Origin: Trichlorobacter thiogenes
GTDB lineage: Bacteria > Desulfobacterota > Desulfuromonadia > Geobacterales > Pseudopelobacteraceae
Assembly (NCBI RefSeq): GCF_900167465.1
Contig: NZ_FUWR01000009.1
Span: 62,001 to 126,000 of the forward strand
Length of the DNA stretch: 64,000 bases
Reading direction: 5' to 3'
A program made the position numbers and the translations under genes. Under the pieces are notes generated by a model that was not told the origin of the DNA, did no database searches, and saw nothing but the letters and a program-made list of their open reading frames with translations. Positions 41,370-64,000 of the stretch are shown one piece after another. Each line of letters starts with the position of its first letter. The first letter of the stretch is position 1.

Positions 41370-41370
41370 T

Positions 41371-44008: not shown

Positions 44009-44037
44009 AAAGTACCATTCAAGCCTGTCGGTGTCAA
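44009..44037 (-). promoter_or_regulatory. Promoter of the pilM-to-IPT operon
   Basis: On the minus strand TTGACA, a 17-base spacer and TACTTT end about 65 bases before ATG 43944. A perfect -35 with correct spacing supports it; the -10 is imperfect. Confidence 0.45.
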
Positions 44038-44059
44038 TCTGACGACGTTGTATAATCAC

Positions 44060-44100
44060 GTTTAAAAAGCCCGCTACTTATGTCGGCGGGCTTTTTAAAC
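44060..44100 (-). terminator. Terminator of the multiheme cytochrome gene
   Basis: A perfect 15-bp inverted repeat, GTTTAAAAAGCCCGC / GCGGGCTTTTTAAAC, with the T run included in the stem, lies 31 bases after the stop of the cytochrome gene. Confidence 0.9.
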
Positions 44101-44130
44101 GCGAGTCGGTTTTCAAGGTCAAGCCATCAG

Positions 44131-46518: not shown

Positions 46519-46705
46519 ACATAGGCTCCTTTGCGGTGCTTCCGCTCAGATCGAATACTGTTGTTGCAGATTCGCTTTCGGCGGTATTGACGGCACAGTG
46601 CAGGAGGATCGTTGTCAAAACCAGACCAGATGGTGATGTTTCATTTCTGCTGCTGCAAAACTCTTCTTTCCCTCCTCTCTTGCCGTGGTGGCGCTGATCA
46701 GATGT

Positions 46706-46755
46706 AAAAAGCCAGATCACCTGTATCAATTGTTTGATATTTCGGCGACCTGGCT
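46706..46755 (-). terminator. Riboswitch-controlled terminator ahead of the cytochrome gene
   Basis: On the minus strand, arms AGCCAGGTCGCC (46755-46744) and GGTGATCTGGCT (46721-46710), pairing over 12 positions with G-U pairs allowed, are followed by TTTTT. The first arm lies inside the 3' part of the riboswitch aptamer. Binding of ligand to the aptamer would therefore block the terminator and switch the gene on. Confidence 0.75.
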
Positions 46756-46819
46756 GTCTCGTGGAGACCCTGTAGGCTTTCCGTCCTATCCTCACGGATA
46801 GTTTAGTAGTGTCGATATC
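46736..46819 (-). promoter_or_regulatory. GEMM-I riboswitch, predicted 3',3'-cGAMP type
   Basis: On the minus strand the RNA has P1 (GAUAU / AUAUC), the P2 stem UAUCC-GUGA-GGAUA with a GNRA tetraloop, the conserved linker GGACGGAAAGCC, and a P3 stem containing CCUACAGG, GUCUC / GAGAC and AGCCAGG. These are the hallmarks of GEMM-I aptamers, which bind cyclic dinucleotides. Aligned by eye with the Vibrio Vc2 aptamer, position 20 is A rather than G, the change that marks the Geobacter GEMM-Ib class that prefers 3',3'-cGAMP over c-di-GMP. It precedes a multiheme cytochrome, the usual target in Geobacter. Confidence 0.85.
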
Positions 46820-46862
46820 ATCTGTTTAATTGTGGGTGTCATTTGTTGATGATCTGATCTTT

Positions 46863-46892
46863 ACAATAAGGTATGCGCATTAAACTTGTCAA
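46863..46892 (-). promoter_or_regulatory. Promoter ahead of the riboswitch
   Basis: On the minus strand TTGACA is followed after 17-18 bases by TTATTG/TATTGT; the implied start is about 35 bases before the riboswitch. Confidence 0.5.
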
Positions 46893-46948
46893 GAAAAAGT
46901 TGCAAATAGGCGTTGCGTAAAAGTGTTGCAATTGAAACGCTGTGGCCG

Positions 46949-49350: not shown

Positions 49351-50349
49351 TTAACCGCCCAGTCTGAAATTGGCGGTCAGCATCCGGTAGGATACCAGGG
49401 CGGTGAACAGCAGGTAGCAGGTCAGCGACACCAGAATCAGTCGCTGCTGCAGGCGTGGCAGGAAGGGAGCCAGGCTGGGGCGGGTTCTGAACGGCATCAG
49501 CAGGCCGATGCTGCTGCCGCTGATCATGCCGCCCAACAGCGTGGCATAGAGCAGATAACCGATGTAGCCGTATTCTTTTTGCAGGATACAGAAGGGGCAG
49601 TGGTGGGTGGGTAGCTCGTAGTAATAGAGTCCGATAAAGGAGATCAGTGCTGCCAGGGAGACCAGAAAGGCAAACGCGGAAACAACCGCATAGAGATAAC
49701 CGCCGGTCCCTTTCAGGTAGAGCCGGATGCCGCAGCAGAAGAGCACAACCATGGTGCTGAAAAAGAGCGGTCGCATGATCCGGTACGGCAGACCGGCCAG
49801 CTCTCCGGCAATGCTCGGCTTGTCGCTGCCAAACAGACTGCCGCAGCAGGAGGTGATCAGATCCCCCTTCAGGTGGAGAAAATAGTTGAACTGCAACACC
49901 GTTTCAGCCAGTACCAGCAGCACCAGGCCCAGTAGCAGGAAGTATTTGGGCTTGATCAGCGGGTAGTCATAGCCTTTGGTATCGGCATGGTTGACAATCA
50001 GCCAGCAACCTGCCAGCAGACAGTTGATCAGCTTCATGATCAGGGTCGGATAGCCGTAGCTGTTTACCTGCAGGGTACCGGCCGCGCACATGGCGCCGGT
50101 AAACAGGATATGCAGTCCATCGGCGGTGTAGAGGTACAGGAACAGAGAGATCGACTGAAACAGCAGGGCATAACTCATGATCGTCGCAATCAGATAGGTG
50201 CGCCGTTCCAGTTGCAGCTGCAGCTCACTGCCGCTGGTAAGGTCCCAGTTTCTCAGAATCTGCATACCAAACCAGCCGGCGTACAACAGCAGGCCGCTGA
50301 CGATCAGCGACGCAGTCATCAGCGCCAGTATGGCAGGGTGCTGGATCAT
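49351..50349 (-). CDS. Multi-pass membrane protein with a CxxC motif, in the copper/ABC operon
   Basis: The 332-residue protein has about eight membrane helices and the segment HHCPFCILQ (about residues 250-258), which resembles the active-site CxxC of DsbB-type quinone-linked thiol oxidases (C-P-L-C-I-Y-Q). A second adjacent pair, S-C-C-G, is near residue 168. I do not recognise the family with certainty. It overlaps the ABC ATPase gene by four bases, so the two are coupled and probably work together. A role in handling thiols or copper at the membrane is inferred. Confidence 0.72.
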   Translation of the reverse strand: MIQHPAILALMTASLIVSGLLLYAGWFGMQILRNWDLTSGSELQLQLERRTYLIATIMSYALLFQSISLFLYLYTADGLHILFTGAMCAAGTLQVNSYGYPTLIMKLINCLLAGCWLIVNHADTKGYDYPLIKPKYFLLLGLVLLVLAETVLQFNYFLHLKGDLITSCCGSLFGSDKPSIAGELAGLPYRIMRPLFFSTMVVLFCCGIRLYLKGTGGYLYAVVSAFAFLVSLAALISFIGLYYYELPTHHCPFCILQKEYGYIGYLLYATLLGGMISGSSIGLLMPFRTRPSLAPFLPRLQQRLILVSLTCYLLFTALVSYRMLTANFRLGG

Positions 50350-51074
50350 ACCGGTGGTTCCTGCTGGACAATCCGTCCATCCCGCATCTCCACCACCTGA
50401 TCTGCCCGTGACGAGTTATAGACAATCGGGTCATGGCTGGCGATCAGGACTGTTTTACCGCTGTCTTTGAGCAGGCCGATGCTTTCCATAAAGGCCTGGG
50501 AAAGCTGGCTGTCCAGGTGGGCGGTCGGCTCGTCAGCAATAATGGCAATCGGGTTGTTAATCAGGGCACGGGCAATGGCCACCCGCTGCAGCTCTCCCCC
50601 TGACAGCCATTCCACCGGTGAGTTGCAATGACGCAGCAGATCAAACTGTTCCATCAGCTCCACTGCCCGCTGTCTGACCACCGGCTGTTGCTCGCCGGTG
50701 GGGTAGGCCGGTAGCATGATGTTCTGCAGGGCACTGATCCCCTTGATCAGGTTAAACTGCTGGAAAATGAAACCGAAGGTGGAACGGCGGATTTCGGTCA
50801 GGAACCGCTCCGGCAGACTGGAACTGTCAAAGCCCTCAGACCTGTCTGTTGCCTGAAAGAAGCTGGTTTCGACCCCCTGGAGCATGATCCGCCCCGAACT
50901 TGGTCTGGTCATGCAGCCGATTAAGGCCAGCAGGGTGGTCTTACCTGATCCGCTGGGGCCTTTCAGGATCGTCATGGTGCCGCGTTCAATGGTGAGGCTG
51001 ACGTTGTCCACCGCCGTAAAGCTGGTGGTCGGGCTAATGGAGAAGGTTTTGGTAACCTGCTGCAGTGCAATCAT
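50346..51074 (-). CDS. ABC transporter ATP-binding protein (LolD/MacB type)
   Basis: The 242-residue ATPase has Walker A GPSGSGKTT (about residues 38-46), the signature LSGGELQRVAIAR (about 158-170) and Walker B with IADEPTAHLD (about 183-192). Its type is that of MacB/LolD systems. It is paired with the permease 2 bases upstream (51077) and overlaps the CxxC membrane protein downstream. In NosL-linked clusters such transporters belong to copper delivery or export (compare NosFY). Confidence 0.9.
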   Translation of the reverse strand: MIALQQVTKTFSISPTTSFTAVDNVSLTIERGTMTILKGPSGSGKTTLLALIGCMTRPSSGRIMLQGVETSFFQATDRSEGFDSSSLPERFLTEIRRSTFGFIFQQFNLIKGISALQNIMLPAYPTGEQQPVVRQRAVELMEQFDLLRHCNSPVEWLSGGELQRVAIARALINNPIAIIADEPTAHLDSQLSQAFMESIGLLKDSGKTVLIASHDPIVYNSSRADQVVEMRDGRIVQQEPPV

Positions 51075-51076
51075 GG

Positions 51077-52213
51077 TTATGACCTCATGGCTGCATCAGG
51101 GGCAATGGTTGCTGCCAGCCAGGCAGGGATGATGGTGGCTGCCGTATAGGGCAGCACCGAAAGCACAAACAACACCGAAAGTTGATAACCATCGATGGTC
51201 GGCACCAGTCTGAACTGCGGATACAGAATAGCCCAGCCTTTCAGGGCATGGGAAAACAGGGCGGCTGATGAAAAGAAGACATGTCCGTAGGCCAGTAACA
51301 CACCGGCCAGGAAGGCGGTCAGAGAAATCACGGCTCCTTCCCAGAACTTCAGCAGCAGGACATCGCCGGTCTCCCAGCCGATTGATTTAAGGATACCGAT
51401 CTCTTTGCGCTCTTCAGCCGAAAGGCCACTGGCTTTGTCCCAGGCAAAGATCACAAAGGAGAACAGCGCCACTGCCAGCATCACCACCATCATCCCGCCA
51501 CGCCAGTCAAACAGCGAGTCGTAGGTCCGTAGCAGTTCACTCTTTAAAATCGGGCGGGTGTCAGGAAACAGTTCAACAATCTTGTTGGCCACGGTCACCA
51601 GCTCACGGGGGTTGGCGACGGTAACTGCCAGGTCGGTGGCAACATCCTTGGGCATCCTGAACATGGCCTGAAAATCCTCAGCAGCCATCAACACCAGATC
51701 AGCAGACACCAGCTCCGAATGTAACGGCATGATGCCGGAGACGGTCAGGAGCAGCGGCGTGCCGCTGTAGGAGCGGAAGGTCACCAGATCATCGGTCTTG
51801 ATCCGCAGGTTTCTGGCAACACCGCTGCCGATGGTGATCGAACCGGGCGGGGGAGGAGCCGTATCCGGCGCCAGCAGGGTGTAATTTGCCTGAAAAACCG
51901 GGTCATAGTAATAGCCCCACAGGCGTGGTGTGACCTCTGATACCCCGCGGATGGCGCTGATTTTTTCCCCATAGTTGGTCGGTATCAGGTCGTGGCGGCC
52001 GGCAATCATCCGCTGCACCACCATGTCAGGCGCCTCGGCCAGCAGTAGGGCCGCTTCCCGTTTCAGGGCCTGCACAAAAAAGATTAGCGATGCAATCACA
52101 AAGATGATCAGGGTATAGACCAGAAACAGGGAGATGTTTTTGGCCTTGCGCCTCAAAAGCGAGGATAGGGCAAAATCAAGGATATTGCGGTGGCGGCTAA
52201 GGGCGTGGTGCAT
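51077..52213 (-). CDS. ABC transporter permease, FtsX/MacB type
   Basis: The 378-residue protein has an N-terminal membrane helix (about 25-48), a periplasmic MacB-like core (about 50-230) and three C-terminal helices forming the FtsX domain (about 245-370). It is the membrane partner of the ATPase that follows. Its start overlaps the preceding small membrane protein gene by 17 bases. Confidence 0.9.
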   Translation of the reverse strand: MHHALSRHRNILDFALSSLLRRKAKNISLFLVYTLIIFVIASLIFFVQALKREAALLLAEAPDMVVQRMIAGRHDLIPTNYGEKISAIRGVSEVTPRLWGYYYDPVFQANYTLLAPDTAPPPPGSITIGSGVARNLRIKTDDLVTFRSYSGTPLLLTVSGIMPLHSELVSADLVLMAAEDFQAMFRMPKDVATDLAVTVANPRELVTVANKIVELFPDTRPILKSELLRTYDSLFDWRGGMMVVMLAVALFSFVIFAWDKASGLSAEERKEIGILKSIGWETGDVLLLKFWEGAVISLTAFLAGVLLAYGHVFFSSAALFSHALKGWAILYPQFRLVPTIDGYQLSVLFVLSVLPYTAATIIPAWLAATIAPDAAMRS

Positions 52214-52516: not shown

Positions 52517-52996
52517 TCACTCCAGTGACTTCAGCAGGGCAGGGGTAATCTCATGAAACCTGACAATCCGCTTGCCCCCGTGGTCTTTTAAAAACTCCTG
52601 CGCTTCGGTCTGTTTTGCCAGGGGAACCAGTTCATGTCCCATCGGTCCGTACACGGTACTGCCAATTACATAAAAGGCGGTCTTACCGTCAATCAGCTTC
52701 AGTGAATAGTAGTCCTTGACCAGCATGGCCGAGATCATGGCCGGTTTTCTGGTTGGTGCGTATCTGGGCAGGTTGTTAAGGTAGATAAACAGGTCCTTGG
52801 CACCGTCAAACCAGGCATGGCTACCGTCACTGAATCTGATTGCCGCTGTCCAGGCCGGATACTTATGGACAAACATGCCGCAGACCGGGCACTTGTCCTT
52901 TGGCCCCGGCGCGGGGGCAGCAGGCGCTGCCAAGGCAGATGCCACGTTCAGCCAGAGGCAGATAATAGCTGAAAATAGTAGGGAAAAACGCTTCAT
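52517..52996 (-). CDS. nosL: NosL-family copper lipoprotein-like protein, copy 2
   Basis: The 159-residue protein has a signal peptide (about 1-23) and the NosL metal-binding motif CPVCGM (about residues 36-41) followed by the NosL fold. NosL binds Cu(I) in the periplasm and delivers it to nitrous oxide reductase in denitrifiers. No nosZ is in the window, so here it may serve another copper enzyme such as the multicopper oxidase at 63621. It lacks a lipobox Cys at the normal place. Confidence 0.85.
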   Translation of the reverse strand: MKRFSLLFSAIICLWLNVASALAAPAAPAPGPKDKCPVCGMFVHKYPAWTAAIRFSDGSHAWFDGAKDLFIYLNNLPRYAPTRKPAMISAMLVKDYYSLKLIDGKTAFYVIGSTVYGPMGHELVPLAKQTEAQEFLKDHGGKRIVRFHEITPALLKSLE

Positions 52997-53167: not shown

Positions 53168-53680
53168 TTAGTGCTGGCCGCTATGCTTCATCTTCATCAT
53201 CTTGCGGCGTTCACGGATCATTTTTGTGTCTTTGTACATATCTTCATAGGCCGCCTTGATGGCATCATCAAAACTGCCCAGGGTTCCCTTGTGTGCCTTT
53301 ATGAATGCCTCGGCGTCAGCCTTGTTGGCAAAGGCCCATTTGGCCCGGGCGGTCATGACCCCCATCTTGTCGCCGCCGATCACCCAGTGGGCGGTCTCTG
53401 CATCAATCAGCTTTTGGGTGGTAAAGTCACCCACCTTGATGGAGGTCGGCATCCTGTCAATGTTATTGGCCAGTTCCACAGCCGTGCAATGCACGCTGCA
53501 GGTGCCGACCGAGCTGCCATCATGATAGGTTATCAGCATCCGGCTATGGGCAAACTTGGTGCGGTCCATGCCGCAGTACTTACAGCTGTCCGGGCCTTCA
53601 ACCTTGTCAGTGGCTGTAACCAGAGCGGCAGTCGTCAGCAAAAGGGCTATCGCAACCAGAAATTTCAGCATGTTTTTCAT
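53168..53680 (-). CDS. nosL: NosL-family copper-binding protein, copy 1
   Basis: The 170-residue protein has a signal peptide (about 1-23), the NosL motif CKYCGM (about 33-38), another Cys pair in TCSVHC (about 60-65) and a Met/His/Lys-rich tail (RRKMMKMKHSGQH) likely to bind copper as well. It lies downstream of the TonB receptor and upstream of the second nosL. The order receptor - NosL - NosL - ABC transporter suggests copper uptake through the outer membrane, capture, and delivery. Confidence 0.87.
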   Translation of the reverse strand: MKNMLKFLVAIALLLTTAALVTATDKVEGPDSCKYCGMDRTKFAHSRMLITYHDGSSVGTCSVHCTAVELANNIDRMPTSIKVGDFTTQKLIDAETAHWVIGGDKMGVMTARAKWAFANKADAEAFIKAHKGTLGSFDDAIKAAYEDMYKDTKMIRERRKMMKMKHSGQH

Positions 53681-53742: not shown

Positions 53743-55752
53743 CTAGAATTTATAGGCCATGCTCAGATAGACGTTCCGTCCGTTTTCCGGAACCCGATAG
53801 CCAACACCACTGACAAAGGGGTCGCGCAGATAGGACAGGTGGCTGTAGTACTGGGTGTCCAGAAGATTGTTAATGCCGCCGGTAACTGAGAACCCTTTGT
53901 ATTGATAGCCTGCCTTCAGGTCAGTGGTCACCCATCCGGCAGTCTTTTGCTCGTTCAGGCTGCTGTCAATGCGATCCTGTTCACGGCTTAAGGTCTCAAG
54001 CAGTTCAGCAAAGAATCTGCCGTTGTCATAGCGGATAGAAATGGTGCCGCGCAGAGGTGGTATCTCGGAAAGGGGGCGGTTGCCGCTGATATTGCGACCT
54101 TCCGTGTATGACAACCCGCCCCGTAAAAACAGGTCGGCCGGCAGCGAGATCTGGCTACCCAGCTCAGCACCCCAGATACTGGCATGAATATTCTGGTAGC
54201 TCTTCAGGGTTGGAGATGCCTGGTAGAAATTTACGTAATCCTGCAGGTCGCTGTAAAAGATGGAGGCATTGATGTAGAAACGGTTCGTGGCGTACTTGGC
54301 CCCCAGGTCAACCTGATGATTGACGGTTGCCTTAAGGTTTTGGTTGCCCCGCCAGGCCGGTGTGCCTGGTACATCAAGGTACAGCTCCTGCTGGTCAGGT
54401 GTGCGGGTACCCCGCCCCAGGCCGGTGAAGACAGTCAGCTCCTTGAAGGGGGTATAGTTTAATTGCAGATTTGCGCTGATGCTGCTGAATTCCTTTGAAC
54501 TGCCTGCCGTCACCATGGTGTTTGTTCTACCTGCTTCTGCATGGGTCAGATCGCCACGTACCCCGCCGGTCAGGCTCAGCTGGCTGCCAAGCGGCAGGGT
54601 GTATTCACTGAACAGGCCGACGTTTTCGATCGTGGCATCCGGTATCATGGCAAGGTCACGGTAACTGAAATACATGGCCCGGCGATTGGTGGCATCCCAG
54701 TTGCGGTTATAGTAATCCAGGCCGCTTTTAAGGGTTCCCGGTCCGATCTGCAGGGCAGCCTGCAGCTTGGCGCCGTAGGTCTGGGTGGAAGCGTCGGTCT
54801 GCATGGAGTAAAACCGGGGCGATGTGCTGGAACTGAAACGGTCGCGGTCATCCATCAGGTGTTTAACACGATCCCAGTAAACCTGCAGCTTCAGATCCTG
54901 CAGCAGTGCCGAGATGTTCTGAACCCGGTAGCTCCAGTTCATACGGTGGGTCTTGTCGTAGTCGGCGTCCATCTTCAGGTAGGGATACAGAACATGATCC
55001 GCATCCTGATAGGTATAGCTGACCTCAGTGCGAGAGTTTGATGTCGGATTGAACCCTAATTTCCCCCAACCGGTGTTGATTTCGTAGGCCTTTGAATCAA
55101 CCGCGGCGGTCTTGTAACGGTTCGGGCTGGTGGATGGGTAGATCTCAGTCAGCAGTTTTCCGTTGCCGGATTTTGGGACATCGGAATATTTGTAGGCATA
55201 GCCCAACAGGCCATCATAGCTGTCTGTCGCATAGGAGGCGGTGGCTGAAGCGTTGGTGCTGTGCCAGTCGCCATAGCCCAGGCTGAGTTCTCCACCAAAC
55301 CCCTTGCCAGGCCTTTTGGTCTGGGCATCGATCAGACCACCCAGGCTGCCGGGATTGGTGAGATCATAGGGGCCTTTAATGATTTTGACCTGCTCAATCT
55401 CGGCAAAATCATAGTGAAACGCCGGTGGGTCCATCCGGGAGGGACAGGCGCCATGCAGGCGCACGCCGTCCACCAGGACGTTGATATTGTCCTTCTGGAA
55501 ACCACGCAGTACCACATCATTGGCAATCGCCCCTTTGTGTACCGTGTTGATCCCTTCAACCTGTTTCAGTGCCTCTCCCATATCACGGGCCGGGCTTTCG
55601 CGGACCTCCCGGACTGAAAGGCTCTCTTCCTTTGGTGATTCTCTGTCCGCACGGACAATGATTTCGTCAAGCAGCAGATGTTCTTCTGCGCGGGCTGTCT
55701 GGGCTGTCAGTGTCAGCAGCAGCGCCAGCAGCGAAAGCTGTTGTACAGTCAT
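53743..55752 (-). CDS. TonB-dependent copper receptor, OprC/NosA type
   Basis: The 669-residue protein has a signal peptide (about 1-22), a TonB box region, a plug domain (about 40-160) and a 22-strand barrel ending in the C-terminal aromatic (AYKF). The plug segment DGVRLHGACPSRMDPPAFH is the signature of the copper receptor family (OprC, NosA), where Cys and Met in C-x-x-x-M help bind copper. It imports copper across the outer membrane. TonB and ExbBD are not in the window. Confidence 0.9.
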   Translation of the reverse strand: MTVQQLSLLALLLTLTAQTARAEEHLLLDEIIVRADRESPKEESLSVREVRESPARDMGEALKQVEGINTVHKGAIANDVVLRGFQKDNINVLVDGVRLHGACPSRMDPPAFHYDFAEIEQVKIIKGPYDLTNPGSLGGLIDAQTKRPGKGFGGELSLGYGDWHSTNASATASYATDSYDGLLGYAYKYSDVPKSGNGKLLTEIYPSTSPNRYKTAAVDSKAYEINTGWGKLGFNPTSNSRTEVSYTYQDADHVLYPYLKMDADYDKTHRMNWSYRVQNISALLQDLKLQVYWDRVKHLMDDRDRFSSSTSPRFYSMQTDASTQTYGAKLQAALQIGPGTLKSGLDYYNRNWDATNRRAMYFSYRDLAMIPDATIENVGLFSEYTLPLGSQLSLTGGVRGDLTHAEAGRTNTMVTAGSSKEFSSISANLQLNYTPFKELTVFTGLGRGTRTPDQQELYLDVPGTPAWRGNQNLKATVNHQVDLGAKYATNRFYINASIFYSDLQDYVNFYQASPTLKSYQNIHASIWGAELGSQISLPADLFLRGGLSYTEGRNISGNRPLSEIPPLRGTISIRYDNGRFFAELLETLSREQDRIDSSLNEQKTAGWVTTDLKAGYQYKGFSVTGGINNLLDTQYYSHLSYLRDPFVSGVGYRVPENGRNVYLSMAYKF

Positions 55753-55817: not shown

Positions 55818-56387
55818 TCAGACAGGTTTTGGAGGGGGCACCAGTGGCTTGGAGGAAAGCGAATACAGCTCGTTACCGGGGTAGCGGGGGTAGGGTGGTT
55901 CTTCAGGTGGCATAATGACCACCCGGTGGAAAAATGGCATGATTTCATGGTTCTGGCTGTTAAGCAGTGCAGACTGACTACTGCCGTTGCAGGGGCAGCC
56001 GCATTTTAAAACGGTCTCTGCTGTCTCTGGTTCAGGCCGTTGCTCCTGCTGGATGGCGGTTGTCTCTTCCAGTACAGTGCGGACCAACTCGGCAGGCAAG
56101 GTGGTGTGGCAACAGTCAGTTTTGTCAGTAGCAGCTCCCAACGGATGGCTCTCCTGCTGCTTTTTCTTCCAGCAACAGCAGGTGCGGTTCAGCTGGCTTT
56201 GCAGAGAGCAACCATCGCGCTTGCAGTCTCCACTGCAGGCGGTCTGGCCATCATGGGCATGATAAAGTGGCTGCAGTGCCAGCGAGGGCAGCGGTCCCAC
56301 GCCAATCAGCAGGTAGATGGCTGCCATCAGGGCGGCGATGCCTCGTCGTAGCGGCCTTATGGTTGTATGTAGGGATGGCGGTGGCAT
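55818..56387 (-). CDS. Cys-rich membrane-anchored protein, first gene of the copper operon
   Basis: The protein of 189 residues has an N-terminal membrane or signal segment (about 16-38) and a Cys/His-rich part: HAHDG, C-x-x-x-C, CCCW, DCCH and CGCPC. This suggests metal binding, probably copper. I do not recognise the family. ATG 56387 is chosen because AGGAG lies 5 bases upstream; the longer frame to 56420 would cross the predicted start site. It begins the minus-strand operon that runs to 49351, behind a predicted sigma-54 promoter at 56415-56431. Confidence 0.7.
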   Translation of the reverse strand: MPPPSLHTTIRPLRRGIAALMAAIYLLIGVGPLPSLALQPLYHAHDGQTACSGDCKRDGCSLQSQLNRTCCCWKKKQQESHPLGAATDKTDCCHTTLPAELVRTVLEETTAIQQEQRPEPETAETVLKCGCPCNGSSQSALLNSQNHEIMPFFHRVVIMPPEEPPYPRYPGNELYSLSSKPLVPPPKPV

Positions 56388-56414
56388 ACGGACTCCTGAT
56401 AGCTTGTTTCGTAT

Positions 56415-56431
56415 TATCAAAAACCGTGCCG
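56415..56431 (-). promoter_or_regulatory. Predicted sigma-54 promoter of the copper operon
   Basis: On the minus strand CGGCACGGTTTTTGAT has GG and GA separated by 10 bases, matching GGCAC-type -24 and a TTGA variant of the -12 element. The implied start lies about 18 bases before ATG 56387. The same GGCACG-N4-TTGAT sequence occurs at 59610-59626. Confidence 0.55.
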
Positions 56432-56494
56432 TGTATGCTAACTGTCTGATATTGAAGACCTGTTTTGGTATTGTTGAGTTGGTTGGTTTTTTGT

Positions 56495-56511
56495 TGTCTT
56501 ATTTTGAGACA
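56495..56511. promoter_or_regulatory. Inverted repeat TGTCTTA-N3-TGAGACA, likely activator site
   Basis: The palindrome lies in the divergent region between the copper operon and the histidine kinase gene, about 90-105 bases upstream of the predicted sigma-54 start on the minus strand. The same half-site TGTCTCA recurs at 59499 and 63083, so it is probably the binding site of the activator encoded at 58150. Confidence 0.6.
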
Positions 56512-56569
56512 AGCGTTATGGTTCAGCTACAAGCAGCGCATCTCCCGCTTTTGTTGGAGGTCAGTGTCT

Positions 56570-58153
56570 ATGGCTCCTCACCGGAAAATTGTATGCTCTC
56601 TGCTGGATGATTCAGGAGAAACGGTTGGCCGTGCAGAGATTATCCAACAGTTTCCTGCCCTGATCTGGCACTCAGGGCAGGATGCCCGTTGTGATTACTT
56701 TAACCAGACCTGGCTGCTTTTTACCGGTCGGACGCTGGAACAGGAGTTGGGCGATGGTTGGACGGAGGGAGTCCATCCTGAAGACCTGGCCGGGTGTCTT
56801 AAAACCTATCTGGACGCGTTTGAGGCCAGACAGCCGTTTACTATGGAGTATCGGCTGCGCTTTCATGATGGTTCTTATCGCTGGATTATGGATCACGGTT
56901 CCCCTCACTATGCCATTGACGGCTGCTTTTGCGGCTATATCGGCAGTTGTTATGATAGTACCCGTCAGAAAGAGATGGAATGTACGCTTCGTAATAACCA
57001 GACGGCACTGGAACAGCAGGTTGAACAGTGCAATAGTGCCCTGCAGCGGAGTCATGACCTGCTTAACAACATCTCCCGGCAGGTTCCAGGCGGGATCTAC
57101 CAGTTTCAACTTTTCTCCGATGGTCACTACAGTATCCCCTATGCAAGCCAATCCATTCTTGATCTGTTTGAGGCGCAGCCGGAAGAGTTACAGTCTGATG
57201 CCGCGCCTGTTTTTAATAAAATTGTTGCTGAAGATCTGGCCGGTCTGATGGCATCAATTCAGGAATCAGCTGAAACCCTTAACCCATGGCACCATGAATT
57301 TCGAGCTGCTATCCCTTCCAAAGGTGTTCGCTGGTTTCAGGGGAACTCCCGGCCCCAGCGCCAGTTGGACAACAGCGTAATCTGGTATGGTTTTGTTACT
57401 GACTGTACCGAACGTAAGGAGCTTGAGCATCAGCTGGCTGAAGCGCGGCGCCTAGAATCCATCGGCCAGCTCGCCGCTGGTGTGGCCCATGAGGTCAGAA
57501 ATCCGTTGAATGCTATTTTGACCGTAACAGAGGCTCTTTTCAGGGAGGAAGGCGTTGAAGGTAACCAGACGTTGATCCCCTACATTGAGCATATTCGTTC
57601 ACAGGTTACCCGTCTGGCTCGCTTGATGAATGATCTGCTGGATCTGGGGCGTCGTCTGCCGGAGGATAATCTGGTGCCGCTCCTGCTCCCGGAATTCTGC
57701 CGTCAGACCGTGCAACTGTGGCAGCGGAGCAATCAGACGGTCGACCGTACATTTGATTTGGAGATCCCGCCGATACTGGAAAAAGTTATGGTTCGTGCCG
57801 ATATTGATCGATTACAGCAGGTGCTTTTGAATCTGCTGGATAATGCCGGGCAGCACAGCCTGTCAGCCAGTGCCATCAGGCTCGTACTGGAAACGCCTCA
57901 ATCAGATCTTGCCGGCGGGCAGATACTGCTCCGGGTGGTTGACCACGGCAGCGGGATCGCTCCAGAGTTATTAGAACGGGTCTTTGAACCGTTTTTTACT
58001 ACCCGCCGGGGAGGGACCGGGTTGGGGTTGGCCTTGGTGAAGCAATTTGTTGAACAGATGGGAGGGGTGGTGCAGATCTGCAACAATTATCCTGAGCCGG
58101 GCTGTACGGTTACGCTGCAGCTGCCACAGGTCTCTGAGGAGTGCCTGTCATGA
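56570..58153 (+). CDS. Cytoplasmic PAS-PAS sensor histidine kinase
   Basis: The protein of 527 residues has two PAS domains (about 15-140 and 160-285), a HisKA domain with the phosphorylated His307 (AAGVAHEVRNPLNAIL) and a HATPase domain with DHGSGIA and GGTGLGLALVK. No membrane helix is present, so it senses an internal signal; heme, flavin or metal in the PAS domains is possible. ATG 56570 is chosen because GGAGG lies 10 bases before it; the longer frame to 56465 would cover the operator. It is translationally coupled to the sigma-54 activator gene by an ATGA overlap. Confidence 0.9.
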   Translation: MAPHRKIVCSLLDDSGETVGRAEIIQQFPALIWHSGQDARCDYFNQTWLLFTGRTLEQELGDGWTEGVHPEDLAGCLKTYLDAFEARQPFTMEYRLRFHDGSYRWIMDHGSPHYAIDGCFCGYIGSCYDSTRQKEMECTLRNNQTALEQQVEQCNSALQRSHDLLNNISRQVPGGIYQFQLFSDGHYSIPYASQSILDLFEAQPEELQSDAAPVFNKIVAEDLAGLMASIQESAETLNPWHHEFRAAIPSKGVRWFQGNSRPQRQLDNSVIWYGFVTDCTERKELEHQLAEARRLESIGQLAAGVAHEVRNPLNAILTVTEALFREEGVEGNQTLIPYIEHIRSQVTRLARLMNDLLDLGRRLPEDNLVPLLLPEFCRQTVQLWQRSNQTVDRTFDLEIPPILEKVMVRADIDRLQQVLLNLLDNAGQHSLSASAIRLVLETPQSDLAGGQILLRVVDHGSGIAPELLERVFEPFFTTRRGGTGLGLALVKQFVEQMGGVVQICNNYPEPGCTVTLQLPQVSEECLS

Positions 58154-59484
58154 AACCACAGATTTTATTGATTGAAGACTGTGCTGTTACCCGCTTCGGG
58201 GTAGTGCGCTATTTCTCAAAAGACGGTTACCAGATCAGCGAGGCAGGATCACTGGCCGAGGCGGCCAGGCTGATGGTGGAGAAACGTTTTGATCTGATTA
58301 TCATTGATATCAACCTGCCTGACGGTAATGGTCTTGATTTCATCAGCGCTGAACGGGAAGCCCAGAATCTGGTGCCGATTATTGTGGTGACCGGTGCCGG
58401 AGATATCCCCCTGGCGGTTGAGGCGATGCAGCGTGGCGCTGATAACTTTTTGACCAAGCCACTTGATATGCCGACTCTTTCAATCTCAGTGGCTAAATCG
58501 CTTGAACTGGGAAAGCTTAAGCGACAGTCCGTTGCCCGCAAGCGACTGGAAAAACAACAGGGTATTTTTTTCGGTGTCGGCCCAGAGATGCAGGAGGTGC
58601 AACAGATCGCCAGAGTGGCTGCTGATAATGGCCATCCGGTGCTGATCACCGGTGAAACCGGCACCGGCAAGGGGATGCTGGCCAAGTGGGTTCATCAACA
58701 GGGCTCGCGTGCTCCCTATGAATTTGTGGAATTGAACTGCTCAAGTCTGCGTGGTGAGATGTTGGCACGGGAGCTTTTCGGTACCCAGCGGGGGGCCTAT
58801 ACCTCGGCTGATCAGGACCGTCGTGGCCTGGTTGATATTGCTGATCACGGCAGTCTGTTTCTTGATGAAATCGGTGATATGAGCAGTGAAGTGCAGGCCC
58901 AGTTCCTGAAGCTGCTTGAGGACAAGACCTATCGACGGCTGGGGGATGTTAAACTCCAAAAAAGTGACTTCCGTCTGATCTGCGCCACCCACCGGGATTT
59001 AAATGCGCTTAGTGCAGAAGGGGTTTTCAGGCAGGATCTGTTTTACCGGATAAATCTGATCCATATCCATCTCCCCCCCCTTAGAGAGCGTCGGGATGAC
59101 CTGATGGCTATCATCACGTACCTGCTTGCCCAGCTGGGATCGACTGAGCAGCTGTTGACCGATGAGGTCCGTGATCTGCTGCTTTCCTATGACTGGCCCG
59201 GCAATATCCGTGAAATGCGTAATGTTCTGGAACGTGCCTTGCTGCTGACACCGCCGGGCGGTATGCTGCGGCAGTCTTTATTTTCCTGCATAAACGGTGG
59301 ACAGCGGTTGCCCCAAATCCCTCTGTCGGTTGAACCGCAGACCGTGCAACAGGTTGAGACAGCCCATATTCAAGCGGTACTTGCCCAGCACGGCGGCAAT
59401 GTGGACAAGGCTGCCAAGGCATTAAACCTTTCTCGCGCTACCCTCTATCGTCGCCTCAAACAGCTGAACCAACCCACCCCCTGA
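58150..59484 (+). CDS. NtrC-family sigma-54 activator (response regulator) with GAYTSA loop
   Basis: The 444-residue protein has a receiver domain with Asp53 as the phosphorylation site, an AAA+ domain with Walker A GETGTGKG (about 173-180), the sigma-54 contact loop GAYTSA (residues 215-220; the usual form is GAFTGA), Walker B LFLDEIGD and an R-finger region, and a C-terminal Fis-type helix-turn-helix (GNVDKAAKALNLSRATLYRRL). It activates sigma-54 promoters with its partner kinase. Phe to Tyr in the loop is known to be tolerated; Gly to Ser is rare. ATG 58150 is used, with GAGGAG 8 bases upstream. Confidence 0.93.
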   Translation: MKPQILLIEDCAVTRFGVVRYFSKDGYQISEAGSLAEAARLMVEKRFDLIIIDINLPDGNGLDFISAEREAQNLVPIIVVTGAGDIPLAVEAMQRGADNFLTKPLDMPTLSISVAKSLELGKLKRQSVARKRLEKQQGIFFGVGPEMQEVQQIARVAADNGHPVLITGETGTGKGMLAKWVHQQGSRAPYEFVELNCSSLRGEMLARELFGTQRGAYTSADQDRRGLVDIADHGSLFLDEIGDMSSEVQAQFLKLLEDKTYRRLGDVKLQKSDFRLICATHRDLNALSAEGVFRQDLFYRINLIHIHLPPLRERRDDLMAIITYLLAQLGSTEQLLTDEVRDLLLSYDWPGNIREMRNVLERALLLTPPGGMLRQSLFSCINGGQRLPQIPLSVEPQTVQQVETAHIQAVLAQHGGNVDKAAKALNLSRATLYRRLKQLNQPTP

Positions 59485-59498
59485 TTTCTTTGACGCCC

Positions 59499-59525
59499 TG
59501 TCTCAATATGAGACGGGGCGTCTCA
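59499..59525. promoter_or_regulatory. Triple half-site array TGTCTCA / TGAGACG / CGTCTCA
   Basis: Half-sites start at 59499, 59509 and 59519, exactly 10 bp apart, and form two overlapping palindromes that share the middle arm. It lies 15 bases after the activator gene and about 110-135 bp upstream of the sigma-54-like element at 59610. The hairpin TGAGACGGGGCGTCTCA has no T run, so it is not a classical terminator. Confidence 0.65.
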
Positions 59526-59609
59526 CTCTGTTTGTTGTACAGAAGCACAAATAAATTGGCTGCACCTCTATCTTGCCTGTTTTCTTCATATTTATTGAAG
59601 TTGTACCTG

Positions 59610-59626
59610 CGGCACGCTTCTTGATT
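59610..59626 (+). promoter_or_regulatory. Predicted sigma-54 promoter of the response regulator/SCO operon
   Basis: GGCACGCTTCTTGAT has GG and GA separated by 10 bases, like the copper operon element. The implied start is near 59636, almost at ATG 59638, so the first gene would be leaderless or nearly so; this is the weak point of the prediction. Confidence 0.45.
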
Positions 59627-59637
59627 ATTCCCTCTGC

Positions 59638-60081
59638 ATGTCACTCTCTCCTTCACATGCCTGCTGTCAGCATGGCTGCAACTGCAACCGGGTACTGATC
59701 GTCGATGACGAGCCGGGTATTCTGTTTGCCTATCGTAAGCTGTTGGAACAGCAAGGGATGATTGTCGATAGTTGCGATTGTCTGTGTGAGGCACTTGAGT
59801 ATCTGGAAAAGCATAACTACCTGGCTGTAGTTGCAGATATGCGCTTGCAGGGCGTTGATTCCAGAGATGGTCTTGATCTGGTGCGTGAAGTGCGCAGGCG
59901 GCAGCCTGCAGCCGGTGTCATTGTGGCATCCGGTACCAGCGACCAACAGACGCGTCAGTCGGTGTCTGATCTGGGGATTCATCATTACCTTGAAAAGCCG
60001 GTCCAGCCCGCAGTGATCCTTGATCTGTTGATTCAGCTTCGGGAGTCTACCAATGGCCTCTCCCCTGTATTGATCACGTAG
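59638..60081 (+). CDS. Single-domain response regulator with a Cys/His-rich N-terminus
   Basis: The 147-residue protein is a receiver domain (VLIVDDEPG, phosphorylation Asp67 in ADMRLQ, Lys in EKPVQP) preceded by a short tag, HACCQHGCNC, with four Cys and two His that could bind metal. There is no output domain. ATG 59638 is the only start that leaves the receiver domain whole. It could compete with the activator for phosphate or act as a metal-modulated relay. The FKBP gene follows after 35 bases. Confidence 0.82.
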   Translation: MSLSPSHACCQHGCNCNRVLIVDDEPGILFAYRKLLEQQGMIVDSCDCLCEALEYLEKHNYLAVVADMRLQGVDSRDGLDLVREVRRRQPAAGVIVASGTSDQQTRQSVSDLGIHHYLEKPVQPAVILDLLIQLRESTNGLSPVLIT

Positions 60082-60116
60082 TTGTTAGAGCCACCCCAAT
60101 GAAAGGATTGTCCGTT

Positions 60117-60782
60117 ATGAAACTACTGTTCGTTCTGCTTATCCTGCTTGGTGCTACACCAGTCCTTGCTGCTGGTCCACCTGAGACCGAAGCACAAAAG
60201 ACTTTCTATGCCATTGGCCAGACAGTATCGCGTCAGCTGGCGGTTTTCGGCCTCAGCCCGGAGGAGTTTCAGTATGTCCTGTTGGGTCTGACCGACGCCC
60301 AGTCCGGGAAAAAGGCCGCCATCGATGCCTCTGCCTATACGCTTAAGGTGCAGGAACTGGCCCGCGATCGCCGCAAGGCACTGGGAGCCCGCCTTGCTCC
60401 ACTGGGCGACCAGACCTTGTCAAAGGCGGCAAAAGAACCGGGAGCCGTCAAGACAGCCTCCGGTATGGTGTACCAGTCGCTGAAAGAGGGTACAGGGGCC
60501 AGTCCGCTTGAATCCGACACCGTCAGAGTCCACTACCGTGGCACCCTTGTGGACGGTAAGGAGTTTGACAGCTCCTACAAGAGGGGCAAGCCGCTGGATC
60601 TGAAGCTGTCAGGTGTCATCAAGTGTTGGACTGAAGGGGTACAGAAGATGAAGGTTGGCGGTAAGGCCAAGCTGATCTGTCCTCCGGCTCTGGCCTACGC
60701 TGAGTCTGGGGCCGGCGAGGCGATTCCGCCCCAATCGACACTTCTGTTTGATATTGAACTGCTTGAAATAGTTAAAAAGTAA
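60117..60782 (+). CDS. FKBP-type peptidyl-prolyl isomerase (Mip-like)
   Basis: The protein of 221 residues has a signal peptide (about 1-18), a helical FKBP_N domain (about 20-105) and an FKBP isomerase domain (about 115-218) with VHYRGTLVDGKEFDSSY and IPPQSTLLFDIELLEI. It is a periplasmic or outer-membrane folding helper. ATG 60117 is preferred because AAAGGA lies 9 bases upstream; ATG 60099 lacks a site. The neighbourhood suggests it folds the copper or cytochrome proteins encoded nearby. Confidence 0.9.
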   Translation: MKLLFVLLILLGATPVLAAGPPETEAQKTFYAIGQTVSRQLAVFGLSPEEFQYVLLGLTDAQSGKKAAIDASAYTLKVQELARDRRKALGARLAPLGDQTLSKAAKEPGAVKTASGMVYQSLKEGTGASPLESDTVRVHYRGTLVDGKEFDSSYKRGKPLDLKLSGVIKCWTEGVQKMKVGGKAKLICPPALAYAESGAGEAIPPQSTLLFDIELLEIVKK

Positions 60783-60801
60783 TCCACAAGGAGCTACTTC
60801 C

Positions 60802-61377
60802 ATGAACCGACTGCTTCGATTGATTCTGCCAATCCTGTTGCTTACTGTCTGCTACGGCCTGCCTGATCCGGCTGCCGCTGCCGGCAAGACCTACCAGCGC
60901 ACCCAGGAACAGTATCAACTGCCGGATGTGACCCTGATTAACCAGAACGGCAAACGGGTCCGCCTGAAGAGCATTGTTGATACGAACAAACCGGTGGTTG
61001 TTGACTTTATCTTTGGTACCTGCACCACCATCTGCCCGGTGCTTTCAGCGGGATTCATCAATCTGCAGAATCGCCTGGGGGCAGACACCCAGAAGGTTCA
61101 GCTGGTCTCCATCACCATCGACCCGGAGAATGATACCCCCAAGGTGATGCAGGAATATCTCAAACGCTACCGGGCCAAGCCGGGCTGGGATTTCTACACC
61201 GGCAGTCGCAAGGATATTGACCTGGTGATGCGCTCCTTCGGGGCCTACATCCCTAACAAGATGTCTCACTATGCGATTACCTTCATCCATCAGCCCAAAA
61301 GTCCTCACTGGATCAGGTTGTACGGCATCCTGAGCAGTTCTGAATTTCTTGAGGAAGTAAGGAAGGTGGGGATATGA
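60802..61377 (+). CDS. SCO1/SenC family copper chaperone
   Basis: The 191-residue protein has a signal peptide (about 1-25) and a thioredoxin-like fold with the copper motif CTTIC (Cys74 and Cys78) and the third ligand His156 (MSHYAI). SCO proteins insert copper or reduce thiols in copper enzymes, most often cytochrome oxidase. No oxidase is in view, so the multicopper oxidase at 63621 or the next gene's product may be the client. AAGGAG precedes the start; the next gene overlaps its stop by four bases. Confidence 0.92.
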   Translation: MNRLLRLILPILLLTVCYGLPDPAAAAGKTYQRTQEQYQLPDVTLINQNGKRVRLKSIVDTNKPVVVDFIFGTCTTICPVLSAGFINLQNRLGADTQKVQLVSITIDPENDTPKVMQEYLKRYRAKPGWDFYTGSRKDIDLVMRSFGAYIPNKMSHYAITFIHQPKSPHWIRLYGILSSSEFLEEVRKVGI

Positions 61378-63077
61378 GACGCCTGACTGCGACTATCTGG
61401 TTGCTGTTTCTAATGCTGATGGGTACGGCGTCGGTGCTGTCGGCAGCTGATACCAAACCGGCAGATCTGCTTGCTGACCTGACACCTGCAGACATTCATC
61501 GGCTGGGTGAGCGTATGTACCGTCAGGGGTTGCTGTCTGATGGTACACCGTTGCGCGGATTTATCAGGGGCGACGTGCCGGTGGACAGCACCGTCTTCTC
61601 CTGTGCCAACTGCCACACCCGCAGCGGGCTTGGTGCCATTGAAGGGCAGGTGGCTGCCCCGCCGGTTAACGGGCCTAATCTGTTTAAACCGCGCTATCTG
61701 TATGCCGACTTTGTCAAAAATACCATCTCGGCCAGCAGAGGCAAGACTCGCCCGGCCACAGCGATCCGCCCGGCCTATACCGATGAAACCCTGGCAGCAG
61801 CCCTGCTGGCAGGGGTAAGCGCCACCGGACGGGATTTCCTGCCGGTTATGCCCCGCTATAACATGGGGGATCGGGACATGCAGATCCTGATCAGCTACCT
61901 GAAAAATCTTTCAGCCCAGGTCTCTCCCGGTATCACCGATACCACCATGCACCTGGCCACCATTGTTACCGATGATGTCAGCGCCACCGACCGTGCCGCT
62001 ATGCTGGCACCGTTAGAGACGTTGGTCCATATCAACGAACAGCGCAAGACCCAGCGCCAGGATCAGCGTTTTGCCAAGATGTTTCGGATGCTTGATAACG
62101 CCTATTACCGCGATCTCTCCATCAGTACCTGGGAGCTGAAAGGCCCGGCACACACCTGGGCTGCCCAGCTTGAGGCCTACTATCAGAAAGAACCGGTCTT
62201 CGCAATCGTAAGCGGTATTTCAAACCAGTCATGGCAACCGATTCATGACTTCTGCGAAAAACGCCAGATACCCAACCTCTTTCCCGTCACCGATCTGCCG
62301 GTTATCAGCAGTGAGGATTGGTACACCATGTATGCCTCAAAGGGTTATCACGGTGAAGGGGAAACCGTAGCACGGTATATTGCGTCTCACGATGATTCGA
62401 CCGCAAAAAGGATAATTTTGCAGATTGTAGTGCAAAGCGAACAGGGCAAGGCGCTTGCCGCAGGTTTTGATGCTGCCTGGAAGGACGTGGGAAACCCTGG
62501 CAGTGTTAAAACCGTCACCTTTCAAACCGCTGCAGTTCCCGATGCCAAGCAGCTAAAGGCACTCTTTGCAACCCACAAACCGACGGACGTATTGATCTGG
62601 GGAGGTGAGCCGCTTCTGAACCCGATCAAACAGTTATCCGGGGTGAAGAAAATGCCCCGGCTGTACCTTTCCGGTCGCGCCCTGGAGAAAAAACTGAATG
62701 ATCTGCCTGAAACACTGCGGGAGAAGATCTTCATTACTTATCCATTCCGCTTGCCTGAGGATGAAAAGGCCTATCGCGGTTTTGCCGATGTGCTGTTGAT
62801 GAGTAAACAAAAGGTGAAAGACGACAAGCGGATCACCTCTCGTACGTTCTCAGCAGTGCATATGCTTTTGCTGGGGCTCAAAGAGATAAAGCTTGATTTT
62901 TACCGCGACACGTTGCTGGACCAGGTCAGTATGCGGACAGATCAGTATCTGCCTGACTTTGAGCGTTACAGTTTCGGCCCCGGACAACGCTATGCCTCCA
63001 AGGGCTGCTATGTTGTCCAGCTTGGATCTGGTTCAAAACCGCGCTTGGTCAAACGTAGTGACTGGGTGGTGTTTTAA
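61374..63077 (+). CDS. Cytochrome c fused to an ABC-type substrate-binding (periplasmic) domain
   Basis: The 567-residue protein has a signal peptide (about 1-24), a monoheme cytochrome c domain with CANCH (Cys77, Cys80, His81) and a candidate Met ligand (MPRYNM, about 161-166), then from about 200 to the end a two-lobe domain of the Leu/Ile/Val-binding protein fold. No transporter subunits are nearby. The fusion suggests a redox protein that binds a small ligand or a sensor-like electron carrier. It overlaps the SCO gene by four bases, so the two are translated together. Confidence 0.85.
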   Translation: MRRLTATIWLLFLMLMGTASVLSAADTKPADLLADLTPADIHRLGERMYRQGLLSDGTPLRGFIRGDVPVDSTVFSCANCHTRSGLGAIEGQVAAPPVNGPNLFKPRYLYADFVKNTISASRGKTRPATAIRPAYTDETLAAALLAGVSATGRDFLPVMPRYNMGDRDMQILISYLKNLSAQVSPGITDTTMHLATIVTDDVSATDRAAMLAPLETLVHINEQRKTQRQDQRFAKMFRMLDNAYYRDLSISTWELKGPAHTWAAQLEAYYQKEPVFAIVSGISNQSWQPIHDFCEKRQIPNLFPVTDLPVISSEDWYTMYASKGYHGEGETVARYIASHDDSTAKRIILQIVVQSEQGKALAAGFDAAWKDVGNPGSVKTVTFQTAAVPDAKQLKALFATHKPTDVLIWGGEPLLNPIKQLSGVKKMPRLYLSGRALEKKLNDLPETLREKIFITYPFRLPEDEKAYRGFADVLLMSKQKVKDDKRITSRTFSAVHMLLLGLKEIKLDFYRDTLLDQVSMRTDQYLPDFERYSFGPGQRYASKGCYVVQLGSGSKPRLVKRSDWVVF

Positions 63078-63082
63078 AGGCC

Positions 63083-63129
63083 TGTCTCATCCTTCTGTAA
63101 TCTGAAACAGGTTGTCTCAATCTGACACT
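63083..63129. promoter_or_regulatory. Cluster of TGTCTCA-type half-sites
   Basis: Half-sites TGTCTCA (63083), TGAAACA (63103), TGTCTCA (63113) and TGACACT (63123) are spaced at multiples of 10 bp, and a further TGAGACT lies at 63147. They are the same motif as at 56495 and 59499 and lie 150-195 bp upstream of the implied start from the element at 63252. Confidence 0.6.
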
Positions 63130-63251
63130 GCAAGGTTGGTAGATGATGAGACTTAATGGATAAAATTCTTGTCATTATGGTGTGTTAGTAAAAAAGATAC
63201 TTTTGGTATTAACTGTGCACATTAGAGGTTGTGTAGCGATGTAGTCAATAA

Positions 63252-63267
63252 AGGCACATTTTTAGCC
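63252..63267 (+). promoter_or_regulatory. Predicted sigma-54 promoter of the small protein/multicopper oxidase operon
   Basis: AGGCACATTTTTAGC has GG and GC separated by 10 bases with the GGCAC -24 core. The implied start is near 63278, 38 bases before ATG 63316. A second GG-N10-GC match (63205-63218) has a poorer -24. Confidence 0.5.
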
Positions 63268-63315
63268 GTGGTACTCAGGCTAACTAACATCTGCGCAGTA
63301 AAAAGGAGAGAACAT

Positions 63316-63579
63316 ATGGGATACCGTGGCGTTTCAACCAGCATTCTTCTGTTTCTGATGGTTTTGTTGACCCTGCCGGTGGCAGCGTTGGCTCGTCAGG
63401 ATGGGCCTAATCCCCACAAGTCCGCCCCCAAAAAACGTATCACTGATGAAATGAGGCAGGAGGCTGCCGATGCCCGCAAGGGTGTCTCTCCCGAGGCACG
63501 CAAGGCGGCCAAGGCCAGTAAAGCCAAGAAAGTCAAGCATCCGGTTGCCGGCCAATCTGCCGGGTCCCCGGTTCGATAA
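63316..63579 (+). CDS. Small secreted basic protein
   Basis: The protein of 87 residues has a signal peptide (about 1-27) and a Lys/Arg/Ala-rich mature part (about 60 residues) with no Cys. I do not recognise it. ATG 63316 is chosen because AAGGAGA lies 7 bases upstream. It is the first gene of the operon leading to the multicopper oxidase, 41 bases before it. A chaperone-like or charge-binding role for the oxidase is a guess. Confidence 0.7.
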   Translation: MGYRGVSTSILLFLMVLLTLPVAALARQDGPNPHKSAPKKRITDEMRQEAADARKGVSPEARKAAKASKAKKVKHPVAGQSAGSPVR

Positions 63580-63620: not shown

Positions 63621-64000
63621 ATGAAACGTAGATACGGCAGTTTATATGCAATGGTAGCGCTGGCCATTGCGCTGCTGGTGGGGATGGCAGGCATGGGATA
63701 CGCCACGCCGGCCTATGTGCCCCCTGGCAAAGATCCAGCGAATTATCCGGGGGCAGCTGCTACGCCTTTCTTTGACAACGGTTATCTGGTCCCGGACCTC
63801 TTTGGCAGCACGCCAAACTGGAACCTGAGCCCGTCACTGACCAAGTTTGTGAATGAACTGGCCCCGCTGGGATGTTCGACAACCAATAACATTGGTCAGT
63901 GTCTGCCGGTAGCGGTACCGGATATTGTGACCTATCCCGGTTCAGACTATTACGAGATAGAGTTGAACCAGTACACGGAGAAGTTGCACACTGAGCTGGG
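63621..64000 (+). CDS. Multicopper oxidase family protein, N-terminal part
   Basis: The gene runs off the window; 126 residues are visible. After a signal peptide (about 1-29) comes the start of a cupredoxin domain with F-V-N-E-L-x-P-L-G and Y-Y-E-I-E-L-N-Q-Y-T-E-K-L-H, the opening of bilirubin-oxidase/CotA-like multicopper oxidases. Copper ligands lie further downstream, outside the window. AAGGAGGT stands 8 bases before the ATG. In Geobacter sulfurreducens the multicopper protein OmpB is exported by the Oxp pseudopilin system; whether this gene is its counterpart cannot be decided from the visible part. Confidence 0.7.
   Translation, partial: MKRRYGSLYAMVALAIALLVGMAGMGYATPAYVPPGKDPANYPGAAATPFFDNGYLVPDLFGSTPNWNLSPSLTKFVNELAPLGCSTTNNIGQCLPVAVPDIVTYPGSDYYEIELNQYTEKLHTEL

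Follow-up and report, generated by a model that had tools for sequence, protein, structure and literature searches.

In Pseudomonas putida GB-1, the oxidases MnxG and McoA are described as being under sigma-54-dependent control by MnxS1, MnxS2 and MnxR, and the same literature reports that rpoN is required in strain MS-1 (PMC11409713, PMC11930936, PMC8218464). The cited passages list a putative mnxG operon in which the oxidase gene is accompanied by genes for a SurA chaperone, two proteins of the SCO1/SenC type and a substrate-binding protein that has a cytochrome c domain (PMC11409713, Table 4), and place mcoA with a GGDEF/EAL gene and a phosphonate-binding gene (PMC11409713). Oxidases of the OmpB/MofA/MnxG type may carry out iron and manganese chemistry outside the cell, and for Geobacter-type bacteria the passages cited here mention no regulator dedicated to them. 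The RpoN regulon of Geobacter sulfurreducens has been described with the -24/-12 consensus TTGGCACGGTTTTTGCT, in a paper whose main text, as available, does not contain "copper", "OmpB", GSU1394 or GSU2657 (PMC2725144). Here, we analyzed a stretch of 64,000 nucleotides from Trichlorobacter thiogenes (RefSeq assembly GCF_900167465.1, contig NZ_FUWR01000009.1, positions 62,001 to 126,000, forward strand; hereafter the window), in which a sensor histidine kinase and a sigma-54 activator lie between operons for copper handling and for a giant multicopper oxidase.

We consider it very probable that this kinase/activator pair switches on a programme for a giant oxidase of the OmpB/MofA/MnxG type through a shared palindrome, TGTCTCA-N3-TGAGACA. 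This reading is built from sequence, namely the genes, the sites and their spacing, their conservation and joint occurrence with the activator, and a site that moves with its target; from these we infer activator binding, phosphorylation, transcription and the role of a lone receiver protein, RR1. The original prediction had the activator controlling three operons: for the two that flank the kinase/activator pair, such control now appears well supported across species, while for the third it would rest on a degenerate site in the window and on support from relatives. A defined set of activator, operator and promoters would make the conditions of expression, and hence the role of the enzyme, directly testable. 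Among the literature matches listed, no paper addressed the motif or a dedicated activator of OmpB-type oxidases.

A shared palindrome ahead of predicted sigma-54 promoters

The sensor histidine kinase (527 residues, 56570-58153, forward strand) carries two PAS_3 domains, HisKA and HATPase_c, and overlaps the start of the activator gene (58150-59484, forward strand). The latter encodes an NtrC-type response regulator with receiver, AAA+ and Fis-type helix-turn-helix domains, each above its Pfam cut-off (PF00072, PF00158 and PF02954). As for an NtrC-type protein, a putative enhancer-like site is present upstream of a -24/-12 promoter.

Two palindromes differ from TGTCTCA-N3-TGAGACA by one mismatch each: TGTCTTATTTTGAGACA at 56495-56511, between the kinase and OprC operons, and TGTCTCAATATGAGACG at 59499-59515, with an extra half-site at 59520. 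These two sites hold as predicted; the third location (63083-63152), ahead of the oxidase operon, is a degenerate cluster consisting of a half-site at 63083, TGTCTCAATCTGACACT with two mismatches at 63113-63129, and a half-site TGAGAC at 63147. Sigma-54 elements were found by scan at CGGCACGGTTTTTGAT for the OprC operon (56431-56416, reverse strand) and CGGCACGCTTCTTGAT for the RR1 operon (59610-59625, forward strand), confirming that the two promoters share CGGCACG-N4-TTGAT. Counted in gene direction from the first base of the palindrome, these elements begin after 80 and 111 bases, respectively, so that the anticipated distance of 90-190 bp holds for the RR1 promoter, and the OprC promoter is nearer than stated. 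Both the palindrome at 56495 and the OprC-operon element are kept in genomes G005 and G009, with the +80 spacing unchanged.

For the oxidase operon, a stricter scan found no sigma-54 element downstream of the 63113 site, and a looser scan returned a candidate, TGGTATTAACTGTGCA (63204-63219, forward strand), at +91 from the site. We prefer it over the GGCACAT near 63253 that had been proposed, because +91 better fits the site-to-element spacing at relatives' oxidase loci (+88 to +90 in five, +99 and +114 in the others). It could be argued that only the RR1 and OprC operons answer to the activator and that the window's oxidase operon is driven otherwise, given the two mismatches at 63113 and the departure of TGGTATTAACTGTGCA from consensus; however, with a spacing close to that of the five relatives and half-sites on both sides of the 63113 site, we regard such a split as unlikely.

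Across the 3,571,247-base genome, ≤1-mismatch matches occur at two places only, both in this cluster (0.57 expected with uniform bases), and the reversed pattern has no match at ≤1 mismatch in the whole 3.57 Mb. At ≤2 mismatches, the genome search proposed earlier returns 9 places versus 8 with the reversed pattern, i.e., noise level, so single sites of that quality are indistinguishable from chance. Within the window, 5 matches at ≤3 mismatches against a shuffle mean of 2.43 are a weak signal (8 of 100 shuffles reach 5). The motif is thus told from noise by conservation, and neither by window-only statistics nor by the ≤2-mismatch genome count. The six other 2-mismatch places of the genome are probably chance. 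Two of them were rejected as operators since they lie within coding frames (C26:133737 and C28:9258), and two more have no sigma-54 element nearby by the script's criterion (C19:24870, which is flanked by additional half-sites, and C28:14165); the last two are C24:138291 and C27:64623.

Conservation with the activator and its probable targets

Orthologs of the activator were identified in 31 of 76 genomes of the family (E ≤ 1e-110). In a 57-genome sample, ortholog copies, including the two halves of one split gene, scored ≥471 bits and the next activators ≤306, and among 297 genomes sampled from the phylum, 2 further copies with 49-50% identity lie outside the family. Near these orthologs, copies of the palindrome are found either behind the activator gene or ahead of a kinase/OprC pair or an oxidase. 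To quantify this, we took the 450 bases behind each of 35 ortholog genes and 1656 background windows from the same loci. The palindrome was present with 0, 1 and 2 mismatches in 4, 8 and 6 segments, respectively, i.e., 18 of 35 at ≤2 mismatches compared to 0.84% of background windows, and with 3 mismatches in 4 more. Across 150 permutations of the arms, at most 2 of the 35 segments matched (mean 0.05), and a motif-free search of the same segments returned TCTCA-N3-TGAGA as its top inverted repeat, again in 18 of 35. Outside the family, TCTCA-N3-TGAGA (G142) and TCTCA-N5-TGAGA (G293) repeats also lie behind the activator, followed by the sigma-54 elements TGGCATCTTTTTTGAT and TGGCATGTCTTTTGCT, respectively, and then by a receiver gene.

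When the RR1 gene is located elsewhere, the site is found with it. RR1 was searched in 12 genomes, 8 of them without RR1 adjoining the activator (the search did not extend to the second ortholog copy of G005 or of G023, to one copy in G012, or to that of G002), and was found in 9, including 6 in which it sits on another contig than the activator. In these six (G026, G057, G067, G068, G074 and G079), RR1 is preceded by sites with 4, 2, 3, 2, 2 and 2 mismatches and by sigma-54 elements at +102, +79, +98, +98, +97 and +98, respectively; behind the six corresponding activators, the best match has 4 to 6 mismatches.

Searching all 76 genomes at ≤1 mismatch returned 41 places, compared to 15 with the reversed pattern, and 14 of these 41 belong to activator loci. 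We inspected 20 of the remaining 27 with their surroundings (left out were those in G003, G027, G064, G088 and G091, and two in G093). Six point to multicopper oxidases that are not located at the activator, i.e., giant ones in G074, G086 and G095, a 660-residue one in G074, and two, in G071 and G077, that are truncated by contig ends. Another lies at RR1 beside a cut activator (G076), and in G004 one separates a truncated kinase gene from NosL; two are doubtful, at a GGDEF protein in G060 and an alcohol dehydrogenase in G085, and the remaining 10 look like chance. By genome, a ≤1-mismatch site is present in 21 of 31 with an ortholog versus 11 of 45 without (Fisher p 0.0002, relatedness of genomes ignored), against 8 of 31 and 6 of 45 for the reversed pattern. 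Activator-linked oxidase loci chosen independently of the motif have a site at ≤2 mismatches in 6 of 11 cases; in the remaining five, with 3 mismatches in L096 and 5 or 6 in L050, L093, L099 and L106, the oxidase sits in a same-strand run headed by RR1. Conversely, among 75 named oxidase loci without an ortholog in the fetched stretch (one elsewhere in the genome being possible), a single locus has an upstream site at ≤2 mismatches and none at ≤1.

Two looser patterns were tried. A half-site combined with GGCAYR-N4-TTGAT gave 41 places in 30 genomes versus 3 reversed, and occurred in 17 of 31 genomes with an ortholog and 13 of 45 without (p 0.02, relatedness again ignored); a single half-site was judged too loose. 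A variant ending in YTGCT, with 42 places versus 24 in the control, was set aside.

Several observations weigh against control by the activator through this operator. Thirteen of the 35 activator-downstream segments have 4 to 6 mismatches, i.e., none at ≤3, and a 4-mismatch site such as that at the G026 RR1 occurs in a tenth of background windows. No ≤1-mismatch site was found in 10 of the 31 ortholog genomes, which indicates that the operator is often degenerate, and 11 of the 45 genomes without a detected ortholog do have one, although in two of these (G004 and G076) the site adjoins a kinase or activator gene that is truncated at the end of a contig. Among 11 kinase-NosL/OprC regions examined, the site is present in all four of the window's genus (G000, i.e., this genome, G005, G009 and G004, where no clear promoter accompanies it), and in none of the 7 from another genus. 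In the window itself, the predicted oxidase-operon promoter is weak and its site degenerate.

Alternatively, the palindrome might belong to another, unlinked regulator sharing these operons, as its size befits many dimeric regulators and 11 of 45 genomes without the ortholog have a match at ≤1 mismatch. Yet the site tracks the presence of the activator, its distances to the promoter are those usual for a sigma-54 activator, and 74 of the 75 oxidase loci without an ortholog nearby have no ≤2-mismatch site, all of which makes a second regulator improbable. That the repeats are transcription terminators rather than operators can hardly be maintained: the terminator scan does call a stem-loop at 59509-59525, with a weak T-rich tail, and the site often comes after the activator stop codon, but it also lies upstream of RR1 and oxidases on other contigs, its distances to sigma-54 elements vary little, and it is missing downstream of the six activators that have their RR1 on another contig. 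Scans for sigma-70 promoters and terminators explained nothing.

The three proposed arms and the start of RR1

For a programme run by the kinase/activator pair, we propose that the kinase (56570) would phosphorylate the activator (58150), which would bind TGTCTCA-N3-TGAGACA, usually 78-114 bases ahead of a sigma-54 promoter, and remodel the sigma-54 polymerase. The inducing signal might be a metal or redox cue, which is a guess. A first arm, on the forward strand, would drive RR1, a lone receiver domain of 147 residues with a Cys-rich N-terminus (59638-60081; predicted leaderless), together with an FKBP-type peptidyl-prolyl isomerase (60117-60782; FKBP_C; MofB-like by analogy, PMC5566968), a SCO1/SenC copper chaperone (60802-61377; SCO1-SenC family match) and an exported protein of 567 residues (61374-63077). 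This last protein had been called a cytochrome; it does hold one CxxCH (CANCH), and the only domain given by Pfam is that of a periplasmic binding protein (Peripla_BP_6). RR1 may serve as a phosphate sink, probably feeding back on the kinase.

On the reverse strand, a second arm would drive OprC, NosL and an ABC transporter for copper capture and handling. The first gene encodes a Cys-rich protein of 189 residues without family match (55818-56387), and is followed by an OprC-like TonB-dependent receptor (53743-55752), whose best NCBIfam model is TonB-copper (251.7 bits, below the cut-off of 472.45), a NosL-type protein (53168-53680; family match), a candidate second NosL-like protein (52517-52996), as read by the original prediction, and the ABC transporter (50346-52213), with an FtsX-like permease by family match (51077-52213) and an ATPase by Walker and signature motifs in its translation (50346-51074). 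Less certainly, a third arm would drive a small protein of 87 residues without family match (63316-63579, forward strand), first in its operon, and the giant multicopper oxidase of 1530 residues (63621-64000, onward to G000:C26:130213, forward strand; Cu-oxidase_2), which has CotA-like segments and InlB-type repeats, mostly past the window end. Overall, the earlier gene calls (OprC-like receptor, NosL, FtsX-like permease, FKBP, SCO and multicopper oxidase) could be matched to families. Beyond the OprC/NosL/ABC genes, and on the same strand, the window encodes two secretins (one with a cohesin domain), PilM/PilN-like and pseudopilin-like proteins and a multihaem cytochrome (36978-49306); this set is possibly export machinery for the oxidase.

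Sigma-54 transcripts start about 12 bases after the -12 base. From CGGCACGCTTCTTGAT, the predicted start is 59636, 2 bases ahead of the RR1 ATG, and in 25 of 27 family loci with an element before RR1 this ATG falls at predicted +2 to +6 (G035, where the element precedes another gene, is not among the 27). The exceptions, G024 and G092, have the ATG at +36 and +38, with GGAG. For 21 of the 25, the script used that ATG and no Shine-Dalgarno-like tetramer was seen; in G057, G067, G068 and G079, a GTG, TTG or ATG further upstream was picked up first, and the ATG at +2 or +3 was read separately. Shine-Dalgarno-like letters do occur between element and ATG in G079 (GGAG) and G026 (AGG), mostly ahead of the predicted start. 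Outside the family, the receiver ATG of G293 is at +151, and the receiver start of G142 carries no score in this analysis. At 25 of the 27 loci, the RR1 mRNA is thus predicted to be leaderless. Proteobacteria are known to have leaderless mRNAs (PMC3616915), and a leaderless sigma-54 receiver transcript would be unusual, though not unheard of. In the window's genus, the beginning of RR1 (59638-59691) encodes CC-x3-C-x-C in three species despite synonymous codon changes, which indicates that the stretch is translated; this motif could bind metal.

The two promoter types also differ at the -12 element. At -13/-12, the 27 RR1 elements have GA in 22 and GT in 5, with GC in none, while 8 of 8 giant-oxidase elements of relatives have GC (G005, G009, G031, G072, G074, G078, G086 and G095); two other oxidases (G074 and G071) have GT. 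In the activator, the sigma-54 contact loop reads GA[FY]TSA in 36 of 36 family copies examined (GAYTSA in the window), GA[FY]TSA in G142 and GAFTTA in G293 outside the family, and GAFTDA or GAFTGA in 17 and 1, respectively, of 18 other activators fetched. For NorR, serine at that loop position is reported to give activity without nitric oxide that is still partly regulated, and aspartate to be fully constitutive (PMC2941729, as far as the cited passages go). As 17 of the 18 other activators carry aspartate, the loop letter alone need not mean leakiness. A combination of loop serine with two promoter classes, i.e., RR1 promoters that have GA/GT at -12 and run directly into the start codon of a leaderless, phosphate-sink receiver, and giant-oxidase promoters with GC, might produce a first step that is leaky and limits itself, and then a tight second one; we hold this proposal to be doubtful, and that the loop is connected with the -12 base is a guess. 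The start-codon-fused sigma-54 promoters nonetheless provide a natural series for the study of leaderless translation and the -12 element.

Reach of the proposed regulon and known systems

Taken together, these data narrow the originally proposed "copper or redox regulon", which was too loose, since the recurrent targets are the lone receiver, the maturation genes and the giant multicopper oxidase. They also qualify its "self-contained" nature, which holds for this genome at ≤1 mismatch, whereas the site in relatives is also attached to other oxidases, to a sensor kinase and perhaps to a GGDEF protein. In G002 and G012, specifically, the site precedes a second sensor kinase; Pfam gives a phosphonate-binding domain in the second sensor kinase of G002, and in G012 the kinase linked to the activator has a CHASE domain.

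Additional sites and loci were observed. In G060 (L119:8538), the gene for a Cache/HAMP/GGDEF protein has a TGTATCAATTTGAGACA site and TGGCATGAACATTGAT ahead of it, and a perfect palindrome lies upstream of a zinc alcohol dehydrogenase gene in G085 (L112:1715), where the script found no sigma-54 element. In this genome (G000:C19), TGTCTC/GAGACA half-sites cluster between sensor-like and ligase-like genes (L219:4800-4960), and no sigma-54 element was found there. Coriobacteriia, other Actinobacteria, Kitasatospora and Streptomyces encode relatives of the giant oxidase with 44-57% identity (L155, L158, L161-L163, L178 and L180-L183), at loci with no activator ortholog in the fetched stretch. Near the oxidase clusters of L145, L148, L173, L184 and L198, other activators (28-34% identity) are encoded, which suggests regulator replacement.

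By analogy, the system of the window may work like MnxS/MnxR, to which we do not assign it. Compared by annotation rather than alignment, the mnxG kit is near the window's oxidase, SCO, CxxCH/binding protein and FKBP (PMC11409713), and of the protein types listed with mcoA, a phosphonate-binding one and perhaps a GGDEF one carry the site in relatives here. In contrast to the two kinases of P. putida, a single one stands beside the activator in this window, and the cited P. putida accounts describe, in the passages available, no lone receiver, OprC/NosL arm or MnxR DNA site. Integration host factor (IHF) sites are reported at the mnxG and mcoA promoters (PMC11930936), whereas no IHF consensus was found between site and promoter in any of the 26 promoters scored here. 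Relative to the G. sulfurreducens RpoN consensus, the GC at -12 is common to the giant-oxidase promoters of relatives, and the RR1 promoters differ (GA/GT) (PMC2725144). The ompB cluster of G. sulfurreducens and mofABC of Leptothrix discophora encode a giant outer-membrane or extracellular multicopper oxidase, of which the window's 1530-residue protein with Cu-oxidase_2 and CotA-like segments is a candidate counterpart, together with a MofB-like isomerase (mof) and a SCO1 chaperone (ompB cluster), both gene types being present in the window, and a MofC-like haem protein, to which the CxxCH protein of the window may correspond (PMC5566968). For these clusters, the cited passages name no regulator (PMC5566968), whereas the locus described here would combine a dedicated kinase, activator and receiver with a common operator.

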